Shown here: piece by piece, positions 9,885-33,799 of the stretch | Position numbering within the stretch: position 1 is the first letter of the stretch | Layout of the letters: each line of letters opens with the position of its first letter | Source: a virus | Length of the DNA stretch: 45,863 nt | Direction: 5' to 3' (one strand) | Virus record (IMG/VR): IMGVR_UViG_3300030117_004523 | Span: 1-45,863 of that record | The notes under the pieces: generated by a model | What the model saw: the letters and a program-made list of their open reading frames with translations, nothing else | Told to the model about the DNA's origin: nothing | The model's database searches: none | Made by a program: the position numbers and the translations under genes

Positions 9885-10010
9885 TTGTTTAATGATATAT
9901 AAATATAATATATAATATATATAATAAACAAATATTAAATAACTATTGTTATATATATTGATATTTAATATATTTAATTAATTGCTAACGCAATTATTAA
10001 TAAATAACCA
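9885..10010. other. Very AT-rich block, candidate replication origin / early promoter region
   Basis: About 125 bases made almost only of A and T (runs of TATA, ATATAT, TTAATATATTTAATTAATT), directly before the first early gene and between the two divergent operons. TATAAT-like hexamers are frequent. Such blocks act as unwinding elements or promoters. No iterons were recognised, so the origin assignment is inference from position and composition. The remainder of 9082-10034 outside the listed elements shows nothing further. Confidence 0.3.
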
Positions 10011-17184: not shown

Positions 17185-17355
17185 ATGGACGAGAAATACA
17201 CAACTTATGTGATAAAGTCAATTCCAAGAGAGACCTGGAGAATGTTTAAGATGAGATTTCTGCAAGACGGGTTTGATACTTGTAATGAAGCACTGCTTCA
17301 CATTGTGACAAAATATTCAAATGGAGAACTAAATGCCAAAGAAACGGAACGCTAG
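17185..17355 (+). CDS. Ribbon-helix-helix-like small regulator
   Basis: A 56-residue protein starting MDEKYTTYVIKSIPRETW. ATG 17185 is preferred to the upstream in-frame ATG 17119 because AGAGGAG sits 4 bases before it and the upstream extension would add an unlikely hydrophobic leader. The pattern of a short strand (YVIKSIP) followed by two helices (RETWRMFKMRFLQDG and CNEALLHIVTKYSNG) fits ribbon-helix-helix DNA-binding proteins. It overlaps the nuclease gene by 23 bases, so it could autoregulate the recombination genes. Confidence 0.55.
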   Translation: MDEKYTTYVIKSIPRETWRMFKMRFLQDGFDTCNEALLHIVTKYSNGELNAKETER

Positions 17356-18133
17356 TCCTGTTGACATAGAAGGCATCTACGAAGATTATATATCGAATAA
17401 GAGCAACGAAAACAGAAAAGCTAGGTATGATGGTAAGGAGAGTTATTACCATGCTAGCAGCACTGGTTCCTGCTCAAGAAAGATATGGTTTGAGTCTGTG
17501 CAAAAAGCTGTACCAACAAATCTTCCAGATAGTAGAGCTCAAAGACTTCTTCGTCTTGGGACTATTGTTCATGATGATATTCAGGAATCTTTGTTACAAT
17601 ACAATGTTACAAGTAATGTTACAAGTAATGTAACAATACATAGTAACGAAGAAAAAGAAAATAATATAAAAGAAAAAGAATCTGAGTTTTTCGTAGAAGA
17701 AGAAATTACTATACCTTCCCTAAATGTTAGAGGTTTTTACGACCTTGTTGCTAAAGTTTCTGAAGAGGTTTACCTTTTTGATTTTAAGACTATGGCTGCA
17801 TACACTTGGAGTAGGAAGTTTGGTCATAACAAAGACCCAAATCCTTCAAGGTTACACGAGATGCAATTAGGCACATATGGTATCGCCATAAAGGAGAAGT
17901 TTGGAAGACTTGATGGTATGTATCTCTGTTACTACAAAAAGGACGATTCAAGGCTTAAAACTGTCCCTGTTTCAATGAGCTATCTTGGCTATGCCGAGAG
18001 CTATTGGAGGGATATTAACGAGGAACATAAAAAGGGTTTACCTATGTTTAGAGAGGGAGTTTCACCTGCATATCCTTGGATGTGTGGTTACTGTCAATTT
18101 AAAACTCTCTGTAACCCCGTTTCTTTTAAATGA
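17333..18133 (+). CDS. Cas4/RecB-like PD-(D/E)XK exonuclease with iron-sulphur cysteines
   Basis: A 266-residue nuclease. Catalytic residues of the RecB/Cas4 group are visible: H80 (LGTIVHDD), D137 (GFYDLVAK), D150 and K152 (LFDFKTM), then a Gln motif (HEMQLGTYG). Four cysteines placed as in Cas4 and AddB (C47 in GSCSRK, C251, C254 and C260 in CGYCQFKTLC) suggest a 4Fe-4S cluster. Followed by a Rad52-like annealing protein, it would resect DNA ends in a two-component recombination system. Residues 91-102 carry three NVT units from a short DNA repeat. Confidence 0.82.
   Translation: MPKKRNASPVDIEGIYEDYISNKSNENRKARYDGKESYYHASSTGSCSRKIWFESVQKAVPTNLPDSRAQRLLRLGTIVHDDIQESLLQYNVTSNVTSNVTIHSNEEKENNIKEKESEFFVEEEITIPSLNVRGFYDLVAKVSEEVYLFDFKTMAAYTWSRKFGHNKDPNPSRLHEMQLGTYGIAIKEKFGRLDGMYLCYYKKDDSRLKTVPVSMSYLGYAESYWRDINEEHKKGLPMFREGVSPAYPWMCGYCQFKTLCNPVSFK
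17604..17639 (+). repeat. Three tandem 12-base units inside the nuclease gene
   Basis: Two identical units AATGTTACAAGT (17604-17615, 17616-17627) and a diverged third (17628-17639). They code for NVTS-NVTS-NVTI between the conserved H80 and D137 blocks, in a Lys/Glu/Asn-rich linker. Confidence 0.7.
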
Positions 18134-18140
18134 AAGGAAG

Positions 18141-18151
18141 GATGATAGTGA
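18141..18151 (+). repeat. Early-region repeat motif, copy 8 (GATGATAGTGA)
   Basis: 11-base copy directly after AAAGGAAG, containing start candidates ATG 18142 and GTG 18148 of the Rad52-like gene. Bases 18142-18157 equal 10517-10532. Confidence 0.6.
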
Positions 18152-18609
18152 TTAAAGAGAAAGACCTTAGCAATTTAACAAGCGACACACCTATAGAAGA
18201 AAGAAAGTATAGGGTAGGCAATACTTTTGACTATAATGGTAAAAGGTGGGCTAATATGCTATGTTATGTTGATGCAAGGTATGTTCAAGATAAACTTGAT
18301 AGTGTGGTTGGTATCGGTAATTGGAGTAATAGCTTTAATGAGATTAAAGGTAGTCTATTCTGCACAATAACTGTTACTTACCAAAGAAATGATGGAAGTA
18401 TTGCTACGATTCAAAAAACGGATTGCGGTACTGAGTCTAACGTAGAGAAACAAAAAGGTGAGGCAAGTGATGCCTTTAAACGTGCAGCAGTTCAATTTGG
18501 TATTGCTAGAGATTTATACAATCTTGACCAAAGCAAGCATAGAGTTGAAATGATAAAGGGCACTAATGGTAAATATTACCCACCTAAAAACTGGAAACCA
18601 AGTAAATAA
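18142..18609 (+). CDS. Rad52/Rad22-like single-strand annealing protein
   Basis: About 155 residues. The core WANMLCYVDARYVQDKLDSVVGIGNWSNSF, then GSLFCTITVTYQ, then KTDCGTESNVEKQKGEASDAFKRAAVQFGIARDLYNL is the signature of the phage Rad52/Rad22 (Sak-type) annealing family. It would coat 3' tails made by the upstream nuclease and pair them. The ATG at 18130 lacks a binding site; AAAGGAAGG lies 0-5 bases before ATG 18142 and is better spaced for GTG 18148, so the exact start is open. The previous stop is only a few bases away. Confidence 0.85.
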   Translation: MIVIKEKDLSNLTSDTPIEERKYRVGNTFDYNGKRWANMLCYVDARYVQDKLDSVVGIGNWSNSFNEIKGSLFCTITVTYQRNDGSIATIQKTDCGTESNVEKQKGEASDAFKRAAVQFGIARDLYNLDQSKHRVEMIKGTNGKYYPPKNWKPSK

Positions 18610-22767: not shown

Positions 22768-23235
22768 ATGATAACACTAAGAGAAGTTGTTGATATTTTT
22801 GGCAGCTTTCACATTAAAACAAGAGGAAGGTGGGTACCTATGACTGATGAATATATCAAAGGTTGGGACCTTGATTTGAAGTTCGGTAAAATGGGAGAAG
22901 ACTTTACAAGGGATGTTTTTGAAGGTAACTCTAAGGTTGAAGTAAAAACTGAAAGAGACATCTGGAAAACTACTGGAAACATAGCTATTGAAATAAGATA
23001 TAAAAATAGACCCTCAGGTATAACTACTACTGAGTCGGGGGTCTGGGTTCATCTTTTAGCTTATGATGGCAACATAGAAGGTGGTTTTATATTTAAAGTT
23101 AATGAGCTTAAGGATAAGATTAGAAAGCGAAAAAGAGATAATAATCTTAAGATTGTTATGGGGGGAGATGATAACCTAAGTCAGTTAGTTCTTCTTCCAA
23201 TAAAGGATTTATTCCCTAGCGTTAAGGAACCATAG
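22768..23235 (+). CDS. PD-(D/E)XK nuclease
   Basis: 155 residues. The active-site pattern is E44 (GKMGEDFTRDVFEG), then E58-V-K60 (SKVEVKTERD), followed by GNIAIEIRYKNRPSGITTTESGVWVHLLAYD, which resembles small phage endonucleases of this superfamily. A-A-GGAA precedes the ATG. It is the last early gene and its end overlaps the end of the leftward 8-kb gene by 14 bases. A role in DNA processing or host DNA breakdown is likely. Confidence 0.7.
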   Translation: MITLREVVDIFGSFHIKTRGRWVPMTDEYIKGWDLDLKFGKMGEDFTRDVFEGNSKVEVKTERDIWKTTGNIAIEIRYKNRPSGITTTESGVWVHLLAYDGNIEGGFIFKVNELKDKIRKRKRDNNLKIVMGGDDNLSQLVLLPIKDLFPSVKEP

Positions 23236-26200
23236 TTGCCTTTACTCCAAGTTTCTGAAGTTCTTCATCTATACTTTTTATATCTTTTAAAATTCTATTT
23301 ACTTCATTATCAGATAAAACTTGATTTTGGACCCTTTTAACTTTTTGACTCATCGCTGTTACTAGAAGTTCTTTTCTTCTTCCAGGGTCAATATCCATAT
23401 TTCCATCAAACAATATTTTCTGTATATCATATGCTTCATTTAACTGATTAATATCAAGCTCTTTATGAAGAGGGCTGTTTGAGTAAAATTTACCCGTTGA
23501 ATCATCAACAACAATATCAAACATACCTGACTCTGTATATAGAAATTTATAAAATTGCTCAATTCTTTCTTGTGTCTCTATCAAGTAGTCAATTTGATTT
23601 TGAGAAGCAGCTTTATCTTTTTCATCTAAGAAGCTCACATACTCCCAAAAAAGACTTTTCTTTGTTGATGGACTTTTATCTTTTAACTGCCCATGGTACC
23701 AATTACTTATGCTACCATTATACCATTGACCTTTTTCATTCTTAATAGGCATTAATATTTTTGGGTACATATACAAAGGTTTTCCAGACTTTCCTTTTTC
23801 TTCACTAGGGAAAAATCTAACCCTAGAATTTTTTGAAGACACAGGTTCATAAATAATTCCATCAAATCCTGTAAAGTTATTTGGAGTTAGATAATTAAAC
23901 AACTCTTTTCTAGCTGCAAGAAGAGCTTCATCAGGTTCTGTTATAACTCCTTCATCTCTTGTCATATAATCATTCATTTGAGATGTTAGGAATAAAGCCA
24001 TTGAACGCTTTAAGTCGTTCCACTCATTAGGCTTATTAAAATCAGCTCCTCTAAAAATATCTTTAATCTGCCTTTTATATTTAAGTGGAGTAAAAGAGTC
24101 TACTCTCCAGTAATTGTTTTCATCAAAAGCTGCTGTTGTTAGTTGTTGGATTTTTTTCATTCCGTTGAACTTATTCCCACTAACATAACCATATCTTCCA
24201 AGCTCATTCGGTTCATAAATAGGAGCCCAATCTGTTTTGCTTTGAGCCGATTCTTTACCGTTTGAATCTATCCACTCATAGAATCTTTTTCTTAAATCTT
24301 TAGATTTCTTTTTATAGGGATGATTACGTCTTTCTATATTTGCATCAAAAAATCTGTAAGCACCTGATTGATTTTCGGCAAATTTAGCAAACATATCAGT
24401 GTATTCATCAGGGTGACTATTTGGATGTGTAAGTCTATCAGCCATATCAAAGCCAAATCCTACCATATCACTTGCTAAATTTAATGGAGCTATATCAAAT
24501 ATTCTTGTCTTATCGTTTATTCCGTAAGCCCAAGCTGCTATTTCTCCTGCCATACTAAATGCTTCACCTCTAAATGCGTAATAGAAGAATCTTTTTATAG
24601 GCTCATCTTGATAGCTTATCTCTCTTCCCATTAAATGGTGAGCTGTGTTTTCAAGTAACCACCCATTAGCAGCACTTCCAGTCAGAATCTTTATTATTGG
24701 TGCTATCGTACCCATAACACTTCCATTTTGGTAACCCATCTTTACTAATTTATTTGATGATAGTGTTCCCATATATGCCATCTTTTTAAATAACAGTGTA
24801 TTTGTCGCCCATTTGTTATCTAAAAATCTTGGTGTAAAAGCCCTGTTGGTTGTTCCTTGAGTTCTTACAGCACCAATAACTCTAGCTTTTTGTATTGTAT
24901 TAGCATAATCAATAGCTGTAGTTGTTCTCAACTTTTCATCTTTTATTTTCATAAATTCAGGTGTTTTAACAAGGTCGGAAGCCTCTTTAAATTGGATACC
25001 ATAAGTTTCAAGCAACTCTATTTGCTTATCCGTTAAGTTGTACCAGTCTTTTAACATCCTTAATTCTTTTGAAGCATCAACTTTTTTACCCTTAGCAGGA
25101 GTAAGTTTTGAAGCTTTAAGTTTGTTTACATAAAATTCAAGAGCCTGCATAGTAACAGCATCAGTTGTATACCTATTATAATATTCCATAACTCTTGTTC
25201 CACCAATCTTAAATGGAACTTCTAAGACTTGCCTTACTCCATAAGGTATATCAACATCATATATTCTAGTACCTGCTCCAGTTAATCCAGCTTTTCTAAC
25301 ATCAGCTCTAAATTCGGGATATAAAAACTTGGTAAGATTTTTAAGGTTGAAGCCTTCAGGTGTTGCTACTAAATTCATAACTTGACCAACAAGACTATTC
25401 TTCATACCATGTATAAAAGGAGTACTAAGTTGCATTTTAGCAGAAACAGCAACAAGGGGAAGAGTTTTCCTTCTATATATATCTCCCGTAGAATTAGGGT
25501 TTCCAAAATCAAACAATTCTTTTAATGTATTTACTATAAAGTTTTTAGTATTAGAGCTTAATCCTTTAAGGTCACCTTTAGCTAATGCTTTTGCTAAATT
25601 TTCTGAGCCTCTATTCCCTTTCATCCCAGGAATACCTTCAATATAAACAAAGTTTTTAAAGAACTCTAAACCACTAAGCATTTTTGCCATAGAATAATTA
25701 TATCCACCAATAACATTATCAAAAGCCCCTTCTCCTATTTCATAGGTTGGTATTTCCTCTTGTAACCTTAGTAATCTTTTTATTCTTTTAGATTGGAAAC
25801 CCTGTGGAGTAACATAGCTAAATTTTAATTCACCTTTAGCTCTCGACATCAATGGAGACGCAGTTATTCTATTTGTTTCCATATTAAATATTGTGCCCAT
25901 TCTTGGTATAGCTTTTCTTTCTGCTATATCATTAACAATTTCCCCATTAATAGTATGTTTGTTTCCCCATTCCAAGAGTTCTTCTACTGACATTTTCTCA
26001 ATATCAACATTACCCTTTTTATACTCTTTAACTAGTATCTTACCTACCTCTTGAGAAAGGATGTCTTGGTATATAACCTCATGAGCATCAGGTTTCCCAG
26101 AATCTTTGTCGGTAGTATAGTATTTTAACATTTCATTTGAAAGTCTTCTATGACCATACGAGTCTAACCACTTCTCCCCATTTTTTCCATAAAGATTAAC

Positions 26201-29200
26201 AAATTCCTTATATTGTTTTGCAGATAAGGTACGTTTAGCAACATCACCAAGAAGAGATTTATATTGCGAGTAATAGTCTCTTATTGCTTTAATGGCTTTG
26301 CCTTCCATAGTATCAGTTCTTAACTTATAGTTATCCTTATAAGCTTTTTTAATAAAGGTTTTATAAGCCTCAGCATTCTTACCCATGTATACATCAATAA
26401 ATAATTGACCTTCTTTTATTTGGCTTTCACTTGTCATAATCCATCTTGCAATTTCTGGGTCTGTAACAGCAGCCATAATGTCTTTATACTTTTTAAGTTC
26501 CATTTTAGCAGCAGCCCTTTTTATAGGGTTCATAGAAGGAGCATAAAAAATATTACCTTTACTGTCAACTTGTTTGGATGTCGCATAAATATTCAGAAGG
26601 TTGTCTTCAAGAGCCTCTATTCTTCCCCTGTGTTTTTCAAGAACAGCTCCATAGAGTTCCAAATTATTGGCATATTCCTCACCTAATAATTTTTTCATAA
26701 CATCATTTTTGAACGTCATCCAATTTGAGCCTCTTCTAAATAAACTAAGAAAGTCAGACTTTTTTCCACTTTTCTTAATTTTGTTATCAATGTCTTTTAA
26801 AGCTGCTTCAATCTCAGGAGAACCAGATGTTTCAAAATGGTTGCTTAATATATAATCTTCAACGTATTGAAGTTGTTTAAATGATGCTCTTCTTATTGTT
26901 TCTGCTAGATTACTTCCTAAGGGCACACCAAATGCCTCTAGAATACTCATCATTTCACTTTCGCTTATTTTGAGAGTCTCAGCATGGTCCTTAACTCTTC
27001 TTTGGATTTTGTTCCAATTAAGCTTGTTTGTAGTACTCATTTTTTTAACAGGACTTAATGAAGTTACAAGAGAGTTAAACTCAATCATATCATTAATAGT
27101 ATTTTCATTAGTTAATCTGTTTGTTATTAATGCATCAGGGTTATCAAATCTTGATAATTGCTTATCGTTAGCACTACTAAGTATATCTAATATAGCATCA
27201 CTTTTTAACTTTTTATCTGCCTTGTTTATACCCATATCATTTAGGTACCTAAAGAAATTCTTTCTTGTCTCATCTTTAATCTTTTTAACATAACCTTCAG
27301 GGTCTTTCATGAACTCTGTTGCTTTTTCATATAGATTCTTAATGATTACATCACTGTTTTTTATTTTACCAATAATAGGAATATCTTTAACAATTTCTTT
27401 TTTAAAGTTTTCAAATTCATTAACCCTTCCAATAACTTTAGATAATGTCTCGGTTGCTGCGAGTGTGTATAAAGCTTGATTGTTTTGAATTTCTTTGGTA
27501 TACCCAACAGTTCCTATATTCTTTTTCTTACCAAGTTCTCCAAGCCTTTCTATCGTTCTTACTATAGACTTTTTACCTATGTCAATAATTTGTTTAGCAA
27601 CATCTGGAGTTATACCTACACCACCATGAAGCTCAATAATATTATCCTTATGTTCTAATAACTCTCTTTTTTCGTAAAAGTCTTTAAGAGTATCTCTACC
27701 CAGACGTGTAGATAAATCATAAAGGTCGGAAATGGTTGCGCCTTTGTGTTTTACGACCATTTGGTCAATAATTTTTTTAAGGTCTTCACCACCAACACGT
27801 TTAGCATCAGTTAGTATCATTCTTCTATAATCTTGAACAAAGAGTCTTTTTTTCCCACCATAAAAATCTAAACCTTTAGTGTTTTCTATAATCTTTGTAT
27901 TTACTTGGTTCAGAATTTCTCTTCCAACACTAATTTGCCCTTTCGTTTTAAATGGTTTTCCGTTAACATCTAACAATAAAAGTTCTTTTGAATTATCAGC
28001 TCTATTACCTTTTGCATCTAACATTTTTTGCCATATTTCAGGATGCAATTCTCTCATTGGGTAGTTAGTTAAATTTTCTAAACCTTTTTGTTTTGCTCCT
28101 GTTTTAACTTCTTTAATTTTACCATTAACCCAATCAATAGTGTTTACCCTTAAATATCTAAAAATAAGTGGAGAACGACCGCCTAAAACATAAAGTAAAT
28201 TTTCTGCCAAATCATATGTCTTGATAGACATTTCTTGACCTCTGTTTGTAAGTTCTTTTTTTGAAATAAAGTCTTTACCTTTACCAATTAAGGAATTAAA
28301 TGATTCTTTAATTTTTTGACGAATAGTTGGGGCGACACCACCAACATCTTCTATACTAACTCTGCCTGTTTTTCTTGTTTCTCCTATCTCTGATACTGAA
28401 GGCGAAAAACCTTTGTCTCCCATATAATCATAAGCCCATCCTTTTCGTATTTTTTGAACTGAAGCTTCGGTTCCTGTGCCAAAGAATGTAGAAATCGCAT
28501 TATTAAACCTATTTCTAGCTCCAGATTTTTCGTATATACCACCTTTATTATCGTTTACCCATTCAATATATTCGGTAGTTAATTCTCTATTAGTATCAGA
28601 TAAGCTTCTTATACCCTTTGAATGTAAATATTTAACATAGTCTATAATTTCCATAATCTTTTTAGGGTTTCTATAACTGTCTACTTGAGCAATGTATTTG
28701 TTTATTCCATAATACAATTCATTTGCTAATTGTTGTGATATTTCACCATTTTTAAGAGAACTATCAATGTATTCTCCAATCGTTTTTCCTTTTAATTTTT
28801 GTGGTTTTAATTTAAAAACGCTGTTATCTTTAATAGTATTAAAATCTGCTGCTGCTAAGTCTTGGTCACGTTTTTGTGTAGGCTCTACATCAACTTCTTT
28901 TCTGTATTTTTTGATTAATGCATCAACCTTATCTTCAATGATATAACCTTTCCCTGTATCTGGGTCCATTATTTTACTTTGTATATCTTTACTATTCATA
29001 ACGTCTTCAACACTAACAGGTTTACCTGTGACTTTTTCCATCAATATTGCGAGCTCTTCAATTTTACCCTTTAAAGGGTCTGAAGATTTAATGTCTTGCT
29101 CAGTTCTTTTTTCTACTTCTAAGACAGACATTGGATTAATATCATTTAATATTCTTTTTAACGATTTATTATAAAAATCTTCAGTAATTTGTTGTTTTTT

Positions 29201-31267
29201 TAATGCCTCAGCTAAGTCTTTTAATTCAGCCGATTTGTTTTTGTCTTTACTTAATATCTCAGACACTAAGTTATCATTCTCTTTTCTTCTAAACTCAGTA
29301 GTTGGAGCTTTATTTTCTTCGCTTAAGTTAATCTTCCCTTCATTCTCTCCACCTTGTTCTTGCTTTTTTCTGTGAATTTTATCTATATAGTCTGAGGTTT
29401 TTTCAATTGAAGACTTAATCATATTAACAGTATTATCTATAAGTTTATCTGATATTTCTACACCTTCTCCGTATTCTTTCTCAAGATATTCCTTAATTTC
29501 TTTTCTAAATTCTTTTGGATTCTCAAGAAGAAGTTCAACTCTATGTCTGTTGGATGTCCAATATTCAGATATATTTTGAAGAGTTTCTTGAGCTTTCATC
29601 TTAGGGTCTTTTATCATAGATTCAACATCTTGTAAAAACTCATCACCATAAGGGTTTATATCTTTACCTATCAATTTTTGAAGCTTAAGAAATTCAACGT
29701 GCTCTGTTTTTTCTAGCACAGAATTTTTCAAATCTTTTATAGCCTCAATGTCAAGTTTTACTTTATTCCCATCAATATCGGTAATGTCTGCAAACTTTTC
29801 CATTTCTTCTATTGTTTTCTTTTCAATATCTATCTGCTTATTTATTTCCTTAATTCTTTTCTCAATTCTAAACTGAACAAATTTTTTACTTACCGCATAA
29901 GGTGCTCGAGCTACATTAAATCCACCAAGAATTGCTGTATTTGTTAAGAGGTGCTTGCCTGAATACTTAAAGAATCCACCTTGCTTTTCAATTTCATCCC
30001 AATCAAAAAATGTTTTTCCTTCAGATGTTCTTTCTATTCCTTGGTGTAATTCTGTTAAAGCGGTAAGTGTAAAAGCTTCTGTTCCGAATTTAGGTAAAGG
30101 GCCACTTGCAAGAGTTTTTACAGAAGCACTAAAATCTTTTCCTTTCATAAGGTTATTAATACTACTTCTATGCCCACCTGTTAAACCTCGATTTATTTGG
30201 TACATTTTTGCTAGTTTATGTTGAACAAAACCCATAAGTTGACCTTTTATACCTTCATCAAATGAGTGTTGAGTAGCCACGCTCATAGCTTGCCATGTGT
30301 CCAAAGGTTTGTCAGGAAATCCAGCTTCAATGTTTTTCATTTTTTGCATTACTAAATCTTGTTTATACCCAGAACCCCATGTAAATCCAAACCAACTTCC
30401 AAAATGGGTAGCATTTCTTGAGACAGCATCAACACCTCTTTCAATCAACTCTTGTCTAGTTTGTAATCCAGCCATTTGCTTAAGAGGAACGTTTTTGTAT
30501 TTCTTTAAAAGAGCTTTTTTTGCCCTATTTTTTATACCATCCTTAAAGGCAGTTGTGTACCCAAAAGCAGCTAATGTTTTTGGAGAATTTTTAAACATTT
30601 CTTTTGCTACTGGTTTTACCAAATCTCCACCAATAATTCTTCCAACGGTTTGCCCTCCAATCATCCAAGCTGATGACTCAAGTTCTGTAAAAGTAGAAAA
30701 GAATTGAGCAATATTATCTTTCCAATCATTGTCATAATCATTGACTTGAGGAAATGGCATTGTGCTTTCTCTCATATAGTAATTTTGTGCACTCATAAGG
30801 TTATTAAGAAGCCACATTTCTGATTCTTTTTGTGCATCAGGGTTATCATGAATAATTTTAGAAGCATGTTTTGCAAAAGATTTTGCTAAACCACCTGGTT
30901 CGTATGTGCTTTTATCTGCGAGTATGTTATCAATTTGTCCAGCATCAAATTGAATATCAATTAATTCTTGAGGGTTTTGGCTTTTTCCTGCAATCCTCCC
31001 CCTTGTTATTGTGTCTTTATCACCAAAGTCAAACCATGTGGGTATATTTCTTAAAGGATATTTTTCGCTAAGAAGATTTCCATTTTCATCTCTTTCTTTT
31101 AAAGAGAAATCTCTCATTATATCGTACACAATTTCATCGGCTTTGGCTTCATCAAATCCCATCTCTATAGCTCTATTCCATGCATGAGCCCAATTTTCTT
31201 TAGCAAACGACAATAAGTCTTGTTTATTATAAACGTGTTTTAGATTGTCTTTTGTTAAGTCTGTCAT
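23222..31267 (-). CDS. Giant virion/ejection-type protein with a tyrosine recombinase-like module
   Basis: 2681 residues, last gene of the leftward late operon, after two other large proteins, a position typical of podovirus ejection proteins. Residues about 845-932 look like the SAM-like core-binding domain of tyrosine recombinases (KYLHSKGIRSLSDTNRELTTEYI, then RNRFNNAISTFFGTG). About 1015-1190 resembles the catalytic domain: GGR1031SPLIFRYLRVNTIDW, a Lys in VKTGAK (1055/1059), QDYR1148, H1174 and Y1183, with H and Y nine apart. A long coiled coil lies near 480-560. The C-terminal third has amphipathic or hydrophobic stretches (NGSVMGTIAPIIKILTGSAANG). It may be a polyvalent protein injected with the DNA; virion location is inferred. 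Confidence 0.75.
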   Translation of the reverse strand: MTDLTKDNLKHVYNKQDLLSFAKENWAHAWNRAIEMGFDEAKADEIVYDIMRDFSLKERDENGNLLSEKYPLRNIPTWFDFGDKDTITRGRIAGKSQNPQELIDIQFDAGQIDNILADKSTYEPGGLAKSFAKHASKIIHDNPDAQKESEMWLLNNLMSAQNYYMRESTMPFPQVNDYDNDWKDNIAQFFSTFTELESSAWMIGGQTVGRIIGGDLVKPVAKEMFKNSPKTLAAFGYTTAFKDGIKNRAKKALLKKYKNVPLKQMAGLQTRQELIERGVDAVSRNATHFGSWFGFTWGSGYKQDLVMQKMKNIEAGFPDKPLDTWQAMSVATQHSFDEGIKGQLMGFVQHKLAKMYQINRGLTGGHRSSINNLMKGKDFSASVKTLASGPLPKFGTEAFTLTALTELHQGIERTSEGKTFFDWDEIEKQGGFFKYSGKHLLTNTAILGGFNVARAPYAVSKKFVQFRIEKRIKEINKQIDIEKKTIEEMEKFADITDIDGNKVKLDIEAIKDLKNSVLEKTEHVEFLKLQKLIGKDINPYGDEFLQDVESMIKDPKMKAQETLQNISEYWTSNRHRVELLLENPKEFRKEIKEYLEKEYGEGVEISDKLIDNTVNMIKSSIEKTSDYIDKIHRKKQEQGGENEGKINLSEENKAPTTEFRRKENDNLVSEILSKDKNKSAELKDLAEALKKQQITEDFYNKSLKRILNDINPMSVLEVEKRTEQDIKSSDPLKGKIEELAILMEKVTGKPVSVEDVMNSKDIQSKIMDPDTGKGYIIEDKVDALIKKYRKEVDVEPTQKRDQDLAAADFNTIKDNSVFKLKPQKLKGKTIGEYIDSSLKNGEISQQLANELYYGINKYIAQVDSYRNPKKIMEIIDYVKYLHSKGIRSLSDTNRELTTEYIEWVNDNKGGIYEKSGARNRFNNAISTFFGTGTEASVQKIRKGWAYDYMGDKGFSPSVSEIGETRKTGRVSIEDVGGVAPTIRQKIKESFNSLIGKGKDFISKKELTNRGQEMSIKTYDLAENLLYVLGGRSPLIFRYLRVNTIDWVNGKIKEVKTGAKQKGLENLTNYPMRELHPEIWQKMLDAKGNRADNSKELLLLDVNGKPFKTKGQISVGREILNQVNTKIIENTKGLDFYGGKKRLFVQDYRRMILTDAKRVGGEDLKKIIDQMVVKHKGATISDLYDLSTRLGRDTLKDFYEKRELLEHKDNIIELHGGVGITPDVAKQIIDIGKKSIVRTIERLGELGKKKNIGTVGYTKEIQNNQALYTLAATETLSKVIGRVNEFENFKKEIVKDIPIIGKIKNSDVIIKNLYEKATEFMKDPEGYVKKIKDETRKNFFRYLNDMGINKADKKLKSDAILDILSSANDKQLSRFDNPDALITNRLTNENTINDMIEFNSLVTSLSPVKKMSTTNKLNWNKIQRRVKDHAETLKISESEMMSILEAFGVPLGSNLAETIRRASFKQLQYVEDYILSNHFETSGSPEIEAALKDIDNKIKKSGKKSDFLSLFRRGSNWMTFKNDVMKKLLGEEYANNLELYGAVLEKHRGRIEALEDNLLNIYATSKQVDSKGNIFYAPSMNPIKRAAAKMELKKYKDIMAAVTDPEIARWIMTSESQIKEGQLFIDVYMGKNAEAYKTFIKKAYKDNYKLRTDTMEGKAIKAIRDYYSQYKSLLGDVAKRTLSAKQYKEFVNLYGKNGEKWLDSYGHRRLSNEMLKYYTTDKDSGKPDAHEVIYQDILSQEVGKILVKEYKKGNVDIEKMSVEELLEWGNKHTINGEIVNDIAERKAIPRMGTIFNMETNRITASPLMSRAKGELKFSYVTPQGFQSKRIKRLLRLQEEIPTYEIGEGAFDNVIGGYNYSMAKMLSGLEFFKNFVYIEGIPGMKGNRGSENLAKALAKGDLKGLSSNTKNFIVNTLKELFDFGNPNSTGDIYRRKTLPLVAVSAKMQLSTPFIHGMKNSLVGQVMNLVATPEGFNLKNLTKFLYPEFRADVRKAGLTGAGTRIYDVDIPYGVRQVLEVPFKIGGTRVMEYYNRYTTDAVTMQALEFYVNKLKASKLTPAKGKKVDASKELRMLKDWYNLTDKQIELLETYGIQFKEASDLVKTPEFMKIKDEKLRTTTAIDYANTIQKARVIGAVRTQGTTNRAFTPRFLDNKWATNTLLFKKMAYMGTLSSNKLVKMGYQNGSVMGTIAPIIKILTGSAANGWLLENTAHHLMGREISYQDEPIKRFFYYAFRGEAFSMAGEIAAWAYGINDKTRIFDIAPLNLASDMVGFGFDMADRLTHPNSHPDEYTDMFAKFAENQSGAYRFFDANIERRNHPYKKKSKDLRKRFYEWIDSNGKESAQSKTDWAPIYEPNELGRYGYVSGNKFNGMKKIQQLTTAAFDENNYWRVDSFTPLKYKRQIKDIFRGADFNKPNEWNDLKRSMALFLTSQMNDYMTRDEGVITEPDEALLAARKELFNYLTPNNFTGFDGIIYEPVSSKNSRVRFFPSEEKGKSGKPLYMYPKILMPIKNEKGQWYNGSISNWYHGQLKDKSPSTKKSLFWEYVSFLDEKDKAASQNQIDYLIETQERIEQFYKFLYTESGMFDIVVDDSTGKFYSNSPLHKELDINQLNEAYDIQKILFDGNMDIDPGRRKELLVTAMSQKVKRVQNQVLSDNEVNRILKDIKSIDEELQKLGVKATMVP

Positions 31268-31273
31268 AAAATA

Positions 31274-33799
31274 TTATTCCTTAATATCTTTTAGAAGTTT
31301 ATCTACCTTAATTAATGCATTTCTTAATTGTGGCAGGTTGTATATAGATTGAGCGTTTGTTTGAATTTCCTTAAAAGGAACAGGATTAAACGAGCCTCCG
31401 TAAGAAGGATGCTCATAAGGGTAAGCAGAATACCTATCATCTTCAGGGAGTTGCAATTTAAATGTTGATTCAGAAAAAGATAGTTTTCTTATTTCTTCTT
31501 GAATGTCTGGTAAAACCCCTAAATCAAAGCTTAAGTTTGAAAGGGCGCCTTTAATCCCGTACCACATATTATCATAATCAGTATATTTCCCGTAGGCTTC
31601 ATTAAATCCAGGGATAGACCTTTTCATATTTTCACTTATATCTCCATAATTACTAATATAATCTTCTTCGTTCATTTCAGATAAATTATGAAGTTCATCC
31701 CATAATTTTTGAGGAAAACTCTCAGGTTTAGGAACTTGCCTTAAAATCATATTACCAGCTTTTTCACCGCTAATACTTAACCTCCCCATAATATTTAAAG
31801 CCCCTTCAAAAGTGTTATGAGATTGAACATAGTTTGAAAATATCTTTTGGTATTCATTACCATTGAATGCTTTATTGTAAAATTCTTTTAAGAAGTATTG
31901 CTCCTGCTCGTCTTTATTAGATATAGATTTAAATTCTTCACTATTTTGTATATCGCTAATTATTTTTAACCCTGCTGTATTTAATGCTTGTGTTGATAAT
32001 ATAGCATCATTGTGACTATGTACAATAACTGTAGATACATCTTTATATATCTCTTTCATATCTTTATGCATAGCACCATAGAAAGATTCCCCTTGGCTCA
32101 TTGGCCCAACTATTACAGATAAAGCAAACTCTCCTATTGAGTCTATAGGCTTTTGTTTATAATTTCTTTCTCCTGCATCAGGTTGCCATCCAAAAGAATT
32201 AAATATTTGTCTACCATAATATGTTTTAGGATAATTATCAGAAGAATCCCCACCAAACATATAACCACCAAGGTCTCTTACTATATCAGGTCCAGCTTCA
32301 GCTAAAAATAAAGCAAGCCCCGCAGACCCTATTCTATTTTTTATGAAATTTTTTGGTATTTTTTTACCTGCTTTTATTCCTCTTTGAAACCATGTTAAAT
32401 TTGGTTTACCTTTAGGTTTTGGCCATCCATACTTATTAACAAGGATATCAGCATTTTTGTTCATACTTAAAATAAAATCATCAAGATTTCCACCCATAGC
32501 TGCTATCGTGTTTCTTGCTATAGTATTTTGATATGCTGTATAAGCAGTTCTTGTTCCTCCTGGTATCAACCACCATGTCCAAGGGCTACCAAAAGGAACA
32601 TAACCTTCGGCAGCTTCTGAATGTGTTTGATTTATTGCATCTTTTAATAAGTATGATTGTATAGCATTTATTTGTCCATTTAAAACTGTAGGGTCACTTG
32701 TAGGTTTTCCTTGATTTAATCTTAATAATAATTCATTAATCCCTACATTTAAATTATTGTGGTATTTTTCAGGGTTTTTATAATCATCATAACTTATATT
32801 CATACCCCAAGGTTTTGGGTCTTTAATCTCAAGTTGTTCGCCAGACTCTAAATACTGATTAAAAGTATCTATTATCTTTTTAAAACCATCATTATGAAAC
32901 ATCATTGCTTGAAGGTTTAATTCTGGAGTTGTAATACCAAGATTGTAATCAACCCACATTTCAAACATGTTTCCTCTCATAAAGTCTGGGATAAGAACCT
33001 CTTGCTCTCCTAATTTAGCTTCTAAAGCCCCACCTAAGATTTGTTTTAAAGCTACTTGCTTTGACATATCTTCATCATTACTAATATCAAAATGTTTAGC
33101 AAAAGCATCTTTATAATTAATAAGAAGCTCTTTCATTGTGTCGGTATTTCCAAGCTCTTTAATTGATTTGTTTACAGCGCTTCTAAATGGTCCAAACCTA
33201 GATTGAAAATTATCTAAATACTTTAATGCTTCATTTTCTGAGCTTTGAATCCAATCTTTTTTAAATTGGTTAAAATTTTCTTCTGTATCCCAATACTCTT
33301 CATTGTAATGAAAATATCTATTTGCATACCTTTCAAAAGGGCTTGCAGTATCTGGGTCTCTTATAATAGCAGCTAAGTTTCTATCATCATTAGGAATAGA
33401 CTCTTCTATCCTCATTGGAGATAGGCCAGGAATATTTGTATTGTTATCGCTTTGATAAAGACTTTTATTTAAAAGCATTTGAGATAAGTCTAAGGTAGTA
33501 AGACCAGCAGCATCTGGTGAGTAATCTTCTTCAGGTGGATTAAGAATAGAGCCAACAGCCATATTTGTGTAGTAATCAATTAAGTTTAAAACAGGATATA
33601 CAGCTCCATTTTTTTCATTTTCTATTGTTCCAACATCATAGTAATTATCTTTACTTCCACCTATAGATATATCTGAAGGAATAGGTATTTCTTTGTAATT
33701 ACCATAAGGGTCAATAGTTGCATATGATGATGGGTCAGCTTCTTCTTCATACTTTCTTTTAAAGTAATCATCTATTTCAAAAAATTGCATTACTGCCAT
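31274..33799 (-). CDS. Large probable ejection/internal virion protein
   Basis: 841 residues, 6 bases before the giant gene. It is mostly helical and charged with no enzyme motif. One clear hydrophobic segment (RIGSAGLALFLAEAGPDIVRDLGGYMFGG, about residues 490-515) could insert in a membrane. The N-terminus (FEIDDYFKRKYEEEADPSSYATIDPYGNY) is Tyr/Asp-rich. Size, place between smaller virion genes and the giant protein, and composition fit an internal protein that leaves the head with DNA. No family match is claimed. Confidence 0.6.
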   Translation of the reverse strand: MAVMQFFEIDDYFKRKYEEEADPSSYATIDPYGNYKEIPIPSDISIGGSKDNYYDVGTIENEKNGAVYPVLNLIDYYTNMAVGSILNPPEEDYSPDAAGLTTLDLSQMLLNKSLYQSDNNTNIPGLSPMRIEESIPNDDRNLAAIIRDPDTASPFERYANRYFHYNEEYWDTEENFNQFKKDWIQSSENEALKYLDNFQSRFGPFRSAVNKSIKELGNTDTMKELLINYKDAFAKHFDISNDEDMSKQVALKQILGGALEAKLGEQEVLIPDFMRGNMFEMWVDYNLGITTPELNLQAMMFHNDGFKKIIDTFNQYLESGEQLEIKDPKPWGMNISYDDYKNPEKYHNNLNVGINELLLRLNQGKPTSDPTVLNGQINAIQSYLLKDAINQTHSEAAEGYVPFGSPWTWWLIPGGTRTAYTAYQNTIARNTIAAMGGNLDDFILSMNKNADILVNKYGWPKPKGKPNLTWFQRGIKAGKKIPKNFIKNRIGSAGLALFLAEAGPDIVRDLGGYMFGGDSSDNYPKTYYGRQIFNSFGWQPDAGERNYKQKPIDSIGEFALSVIVGPMSQGESFYGAMHKDMKEIYKDVSTVIVHSHNDAILSTQALNTAGLKIISDIQNSEEFKSISNKDEQEQYFLKEFYNKAFNGNEYQKIFSNYVQSHNTFEGALNIMGRLSISGEKAGNMILRQVPKPESFPQKLWDELHNLSEMNEEDYISNYGDISENMKRSIPGFNEAYGKYTDYDNMWYGIKGALSNLSFDLGVLPDIQEEIRKLSFSESTFKLQLPEDDRYSAYPYEHPSYGGSFNPVPFKEIQTNAQSIYNLPQLRNALIKVDKLLKDIKE

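Follow-up and report, generated by a model that had tools for sequence, protein, structure and literature searches.

The virus record IMGVR_UViG_3300030117_004523 (45,863 bases), the whole of which constitutes the window analysed here, encodes a P22-like portal protein (phrog_156, E 1e-66) and, according to profile matches, a large terminase (phrog_38), a major head protein, a DnaB-type helicase and a DNA methyltransferase. IMG/VR contigs include many close relatives of the terminase (78–91% identity), but those of cultured phages share only about 25% identity with it. The leftward late operon ends with two adjacent large ORFs:

23222..31267, minus strand: giant late ORF of 2681 aa, final gene of the leftward late operon, carrying the module described below and having homologous giants in related IMG/VR records
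31274..33799, minus strand: 841-aa ORF located directly upstream of the giant, with 27% identity to an ORF of the related record L087

In several relatives, an ORF of 600–1100 aa occupies the position of the 841-aa ORF, which is probably a second ejection or core protein. In P22 and T7, the gp16 ejection proteins are encoded at such a place of the late operon. The giants resemble these ejection (internal core) proteins in that they close the late operon behind the 600–1100 aa ORF and in the presence of a P22-like portal, but they share no detected sequence similarity with them, are roughly twice as large as T7 gp16 or larger still and carry a recombinase-fold module. Ejection of the giant with the DNA is only inferred, from its late-operon position.

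Elsewhere in the window, a PD-(D/E)XK nuclease adjoins a Rad52-type annealing protein (17333–18609), the two making up a recombination pair. A 15-nt inverted repeat with a 10-nt spacer (9932–9971) is found in an AT-rich gap between divergent operons; its layout is lox-like and it probably arose by chance. A search of the window for lox-like sites retrieved only AT-rich palindromes, no att or lox site being identifiable, and the record has no terminal repeats. Record-wide Pfam and PHROG scans detected no separate integrase in the window or in 25 related records, many of which are fragments.

From the sequence alone, the first-pass annotation had proposed that a tyrosine recombinase-like module is buried in the giant. 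The features of this module are the following:

28472..28735, minus strand: core-binding (SAM-like) region, residues 845–932, of which residues 864–906 (28550–28678) are supported by profiles
27698..28225, minus strand: catalytic-domain region, residues 1015–1190, recognised by its residue pattern and by its position, which matches that of the recombinase domain of other giants
28175..28177, minus strand: codon of R1031, candidate box-I Arg, pattern only and without statistical support
28103..28105, minus strand: codon of K1055, candidate beta-hairpin Lys, pattern only
27713..27997, minus strand: residues 1091–1185, C-terminal half of the catalytic domain, H1174 and Y1183 being aligned in register
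27824..27826, minus strand: codon of R1148, candidate box-II Arg within Q1145-D-Y-R1148, where clade-1 alignments put the family Arg, the clade-2 profile being 4 residues off
27746..27748, minus strand: codon of H1174, candidate box-III His (residue pattern and family alignments)
27719..27721, minus strand: codon of Y1183, candidate nucleophile (residue pattern and family alignments)

The ORF is exactly as annotated, G1029-G1030-R1031, K1055, K1059, Q1145, R1148, H1174 and Y1183 all occur where they had been placed, and the reported spacings are correct (152 residues from R1031 to Y1183, 26 from R1148 to H1174 and nine from His to Tyr). By itself, this residue pattern carries little weight. 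When the giant was shuffled 1000 times, a G-x-R/K/R/H-x8-Y pattern with comparable spacings turned up in 74 of the shuffled sequences and a version typical of the family (D-x-R-[RKE] in box II) in nine of them, both patterns having been picked after the sequence had been seen. It is only the homologues that strengthen the claim.

Giants of roughly 2200–2900 aa are encoded by related uncultured phages. The records that share the terminase and cover the gene in its entirety have one of about 2250–2900 aa, and the conserved C-terminal part of the giant, used as a query, retrieved further ones, some of them shorter or cut. Most giants carry a core-binding and a catalytic tyrosine recombinase-like domain at about residues 700–1290, an interval in which clear recombinase-like sequences are found (e.g. 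GIRxxEI, K-T, x-D-L-R and GH...Y). An HMM built from eight of these modules also matches the corresponding part of eight additional giants (L104, L088, L098, L112, L107, L113, L093 and L111). The nearest relative of the window giant, that of L087 (2924 aa), has BLAST matches to window residues 1–614 and 1284–2616, the module interval remaining unmatched. An HMM built without L087 matches its residues 929–1048 (E 2.3e-16) and its corresponding interval aligns with the family (P 1.9e-7). The C-terminal half of its module is degraded, box II, the His and the Tyr not being recognisable. The best-conserved stretch of the giants lies further downstream (window 24488–25885, residues 1795–2260; LTGAGTRIYD, RTQGTTxRxFTPRF and LLLFKKMAYAGT) and includes no recognised domain. 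No match was obtained when the giants of the window and of three relatives were compared by tblastn with 50,697 phage records, when genome contigs were scanned with the conserved C-terminal part or when viral contigs were scanned with single proteins; a scan with an alignment of the window and L087 giants recovered only the contig of L087 itself.

The match to recombinase profiles that the first-pass annotation had put forward as a check was obtained at the family level. Searched against 177,635 PDB sequences, a profile of 11 modules retrieved at E<=10 only XerD (E 1.1e-5) and XerA twice (E 0.046 and 0.16), while a profile restricted to the catalytic part retrieved XerA (E 0.0016), followed by weak matches that include the Tn1549 integrase and Cre. 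When the module profile was aligned by hhalign with a profile of six recombinases (lambda Int, Cre, P2 Int, HP1 Int, XerC and XerD), the match extended over 222 columns (P 8.2e-8; P 0.59 for the reversed control). A second and more diverged clade (L090, L092, L101 and others) also matches known recombinases by hhalign (P 5e-7); among PDB sequences, its profile places the integrase 3nkh (E 0.0083) second, behind an unrelated topoisomerase II (E 0.0049). For 17 full-length giants, integrase is the sole PHROG family at E<=0.01 (4.6e-5), and Phage_integrase (0.0017), Phage_int_SAM_4 (0.0079) and SAM_1 (0.021) appear among scattered weak Pfam matches. In record-wide scans of 25 records, all matches to the PHROG integrase family fell on the module of five giants. 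Pfam integrase matches concern the giants of three records, at the module in two of them and outside it in the third. The latter, a weak Phage_integrase match of G007/L089 (E 7.7e-4) at residues about 2029–2095, which belong to the conserved C-terminal part, was not retained as support because of its position outside the module.

Structure prediction points to the same fold for a homologue. The AlphaFold model of the L120 module, based on a 12-row alignment, has a pLDDT of 77.8 and a pTM of 0.65. In a Foldseek search of PDB with this model, ranks 1–18 are all Cre (including a Cre derivative), XerA, the lambda, HP1 or P2 integrases or human topoisomerase I, with probabilities up to 1.00; TM-scores are moderate (0.3–0.5) and no PDB match has an E-value below 0.001. 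Integrases also dominate the top matches in a viral structure library. The single-sequence AlphaFold model of the window module is uninformative (pLDDT 34.5), and a window-first multiple alignment intended for AlphaFold was dropped because MAFFT set the R1 region out of register. The recombinase-fold prediction made for the window was thus borne out for L120 and not for the window module itself, whose single-sequence folding failed. The fold of the superfamily, in which a helical core-binding domain precedes the catalytic one, is met by L120 and by the family profiles, and only partially by the window. Taken together, it is practically certain that the module of the family adopts a recombinase fold.

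The expectation that homologues would keep both Arg, the His and the Tyr was largely fulfilled. Among 24 giants, including that of the window, the Tyr is found in all, the box-II Arg in 22, the box-I Arg in 21 (missing in L092, L101 and L121) and the His in 21 (missing in L096_97, L094_95 and L102), some clade-2 members lacking R1 or the His; the box-II Arg is missing in L088 and L098. These sites were located via motif strings picked by eye, and L087 was left out of the counts, as the second half of its module could not be recognised. In clade 1, the Lys is nearly invariant and the 12 members other than L087 all keep R1, the His and the Tyr although most of them share only 17–30% identity. 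The box-II His is replaced (by T, Y, F, K or others) in nearly all giants, and an Asp often precedes the Arg by two residues; clade-1 giants often have D-x-R-R in box II, with which Q-D-Y-R-R of the window is consistent. The replacement of this His by Gln, described in the first-pass annotation as the only deviation, is therefore real (Q1145) but is no peculiarity of the window; it is a family trait.

The window giant is the weakest and a very diverged member of the module family. Direct searches of the window protein and module against Pfam, PHROGs and PDB gave no relevant match, nor did the clade-2 profile match the module by HMMER. By hhalign against the whole giant, a family profile built without the window finds its best place at residues 864–906, at core-binding positions (P 0.061), with a score equalled in one of 120 shuffles. 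A clade-2 profile, also built without the window, finds its best place in the 2681 aa at residues 1091–1185 (P 0.0072; score reached in none of 120 shuffles), with H1174 and Y1183 opposite the GH and Tyr of the family. With this profile, the box-II Arg falls four residues N-terminal to R1148; in clade-1 alignments, it coincides with R1148. The R1031 stretch is not significant in pairwise comparisons with known recombinases (52 of 500 shuffles being as good). Statistical support, which is modest, therefore concerns the core-binding stretch and the H...Y half of the proposed module, R1031 and K1055/K1059 remaining pattern only. Membership of the window module in the recombinase-fold family is moderately supported and it very likely has this fold; overall, the recombinase-like reading is supported.

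The giants share with XerD, XerA, Cre and phage integrases the order of the core-binding and catalytic domains, the fold and the R...R...H-x8-Y signature, the Tyr being found shortly after the box-III His (H1174 and Y1183 of the window align unforced). They differ from them in that the module sits within a giant late-operon protein instead of being a free enzyme of 300–400 aa, in that the box-II His is replaced and in that no attachment or lox-like site was identified. Since the His of HxxR, typical of canonical tyrosine recombinases, is absent (Q1145 in the window), the module was assigned to the DNA breaking-rejoining superfamily and not to canonical tyrosine recombinases. Type IB topoisomerases, which belong to the same superfamily and are represented by human topoisomerase I among the top structural matches, also have a residue other than His at the box-II position. 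The domain layout of the giants is recombinase-like, unlike that of these topoisomerases, and no relaxation activity is known for them.

Homology and fold at the family level, conservation of the residues and conservation of the location have been established. The overall explanation that best accounts for these data, and which seems reasonably likely, is an ejected giant including a DNA-handling recombinase-fold enzyme that acts on the entering genome, packaging, ejection, substrate and catalysis being inferred. The process could be viewed as follows. The giant would be a late, probably virion-internal (ejection-type) protein, the middle of which would be a domain of the superfamily of tyrosine recombinases and type IB topoisomerases. 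It would enter the cell together with the phage DNA and its two-domain module would wrap the entering duplex. In lineages retaining R, K, R, H and Y, the Tyr might make transient phosphotyrosyl nicks that would relax the incoming genome or join (circularise) it. In the sub-lineage of the window, the module may persist mainly as a DNA-binding clamp. It can only tentatively be proposed that the packaged domain is active, i.e. that it is injected as a protein of tyrosine recombinase/topoisomerase IB type and breaks and rejoins strands of the entering genome before phage gene expression. Circularisation need not depend on the module of the giant, as the phage itself encodes a Rad52-type annealing protein, which could achieve it together with the adjacent PD-(D/E)XK nuclease.

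The main rival of an active enzyme is a co-opted and catalytically inactive fold, serving as a DNA-binding clamp or as part of the ejection conduit and in which the catalytic residues would only be remnants. The family-wide replacement of the box-II His, the loss of R1, the His or the box-II Arg in some giants and the degradation of the C-terminal half in L087 are in its favour, the last making an inactive DNA-binding role a real possibility in the sub-lineage of the window. Nevertheless, a pure clamp would not need the Tyr that every counted giant keeps, nor does this hypothesis fit the retention of R1, the His and the Tyr throughout clade 1, L087 excepted, despite low identity; it appears rather unlikely.

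A zincin-like HExxH motif (e.g. DTLPHEVSHHV or QPxDFxHENxHRLK), conserved at residues about 1050–1270, follows the module in most giants, including those of L089, L090, L092, L101, L107, L113, L116, L118, L120, L126, L128 and L135, and suggests a zincin-like peptidase; it is absent from the giants of the window, L087, L088, L098, L103 and L121. Between the module and this motif, L092 (residues about 1005–1050) and likewise L090, L101, L096_97, L094_95 and L102 have a 'MFDYMIQTGPRLNEI' stretch that resembles a second box-I Arg helix of tyrosine recombinases, whether by duplication, permutation or chance. Polyvalent proteins are presumed to enter the cell by injection and to be cleaved by zincin peptidases (Iyer et al. 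2017, PMC5512222). By analogy, the giant could be an injected effector directed against host DNA or host defence and processed by the neighbouring peptidase of most relatives. The presence of HExxH after the module, which recalls the polyvalent proteins that include a zincin peptidase (PMC5512222), agrees with such a role, which is nevertheless improbable, as the window and L087 giants lack this motif and no other effector or LPD family was detected (Pfam scan of 17 giants). LPD38, sought as the identity of the C-terminal part, had no match in 25 records, the positive control giving no match either. The giants thus resemble polyvalent proteins (PMC5512222) as very large multidomain phage proteins presumed to be injected, most of them with HExxH, but neither LPD38 nor any other Pfam domain listed for these proteins was found in them. 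As the main text of the 2017 survey never mentions recombinases or integrases (PMC5512222), the published idea, with which the first-pass annotation had associated the giant, covers its architecture and not its recombinase-fold domain. Least probable of all is that the window giant has lost the domain and that its residues are aligned by chance, as could be suggested by the occurrence of the generic pattern in 7% of shuffles, the lack of HMMER match and the failed single-sequence folding, since two profiles built without the window pick, in the correct order, the expected stretches of the whole 2681-aa giant, one of them with a score unmatched by shuffles, and since the domain is present in L087, which is similar to the window giant on both flanks of the module interval.

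To our knowledge, phage tyrosine recombinases are stand-alone enzymes made after infection. The presence of a recombinase-like domain within late giants implies that these phages may inject such an enzyme with their DNA. No report of recombinase-fold ejection or polyvalent proteins was found in the literature available as open-licence papers. These data also indicate that family-level profiles can resolve a motif that is too weak for library searches. A recombinase fold conserved in late, probably ejected giants of a group of related phages would add a domain class that is not mentioned in the main text of the polyvalent-protein survey (PMC5512222). If the proposed reading as a DNA-handling enzyme is true, injected proteins would gain a new function, the handling of the topology or of the ends of the incoming DNA.
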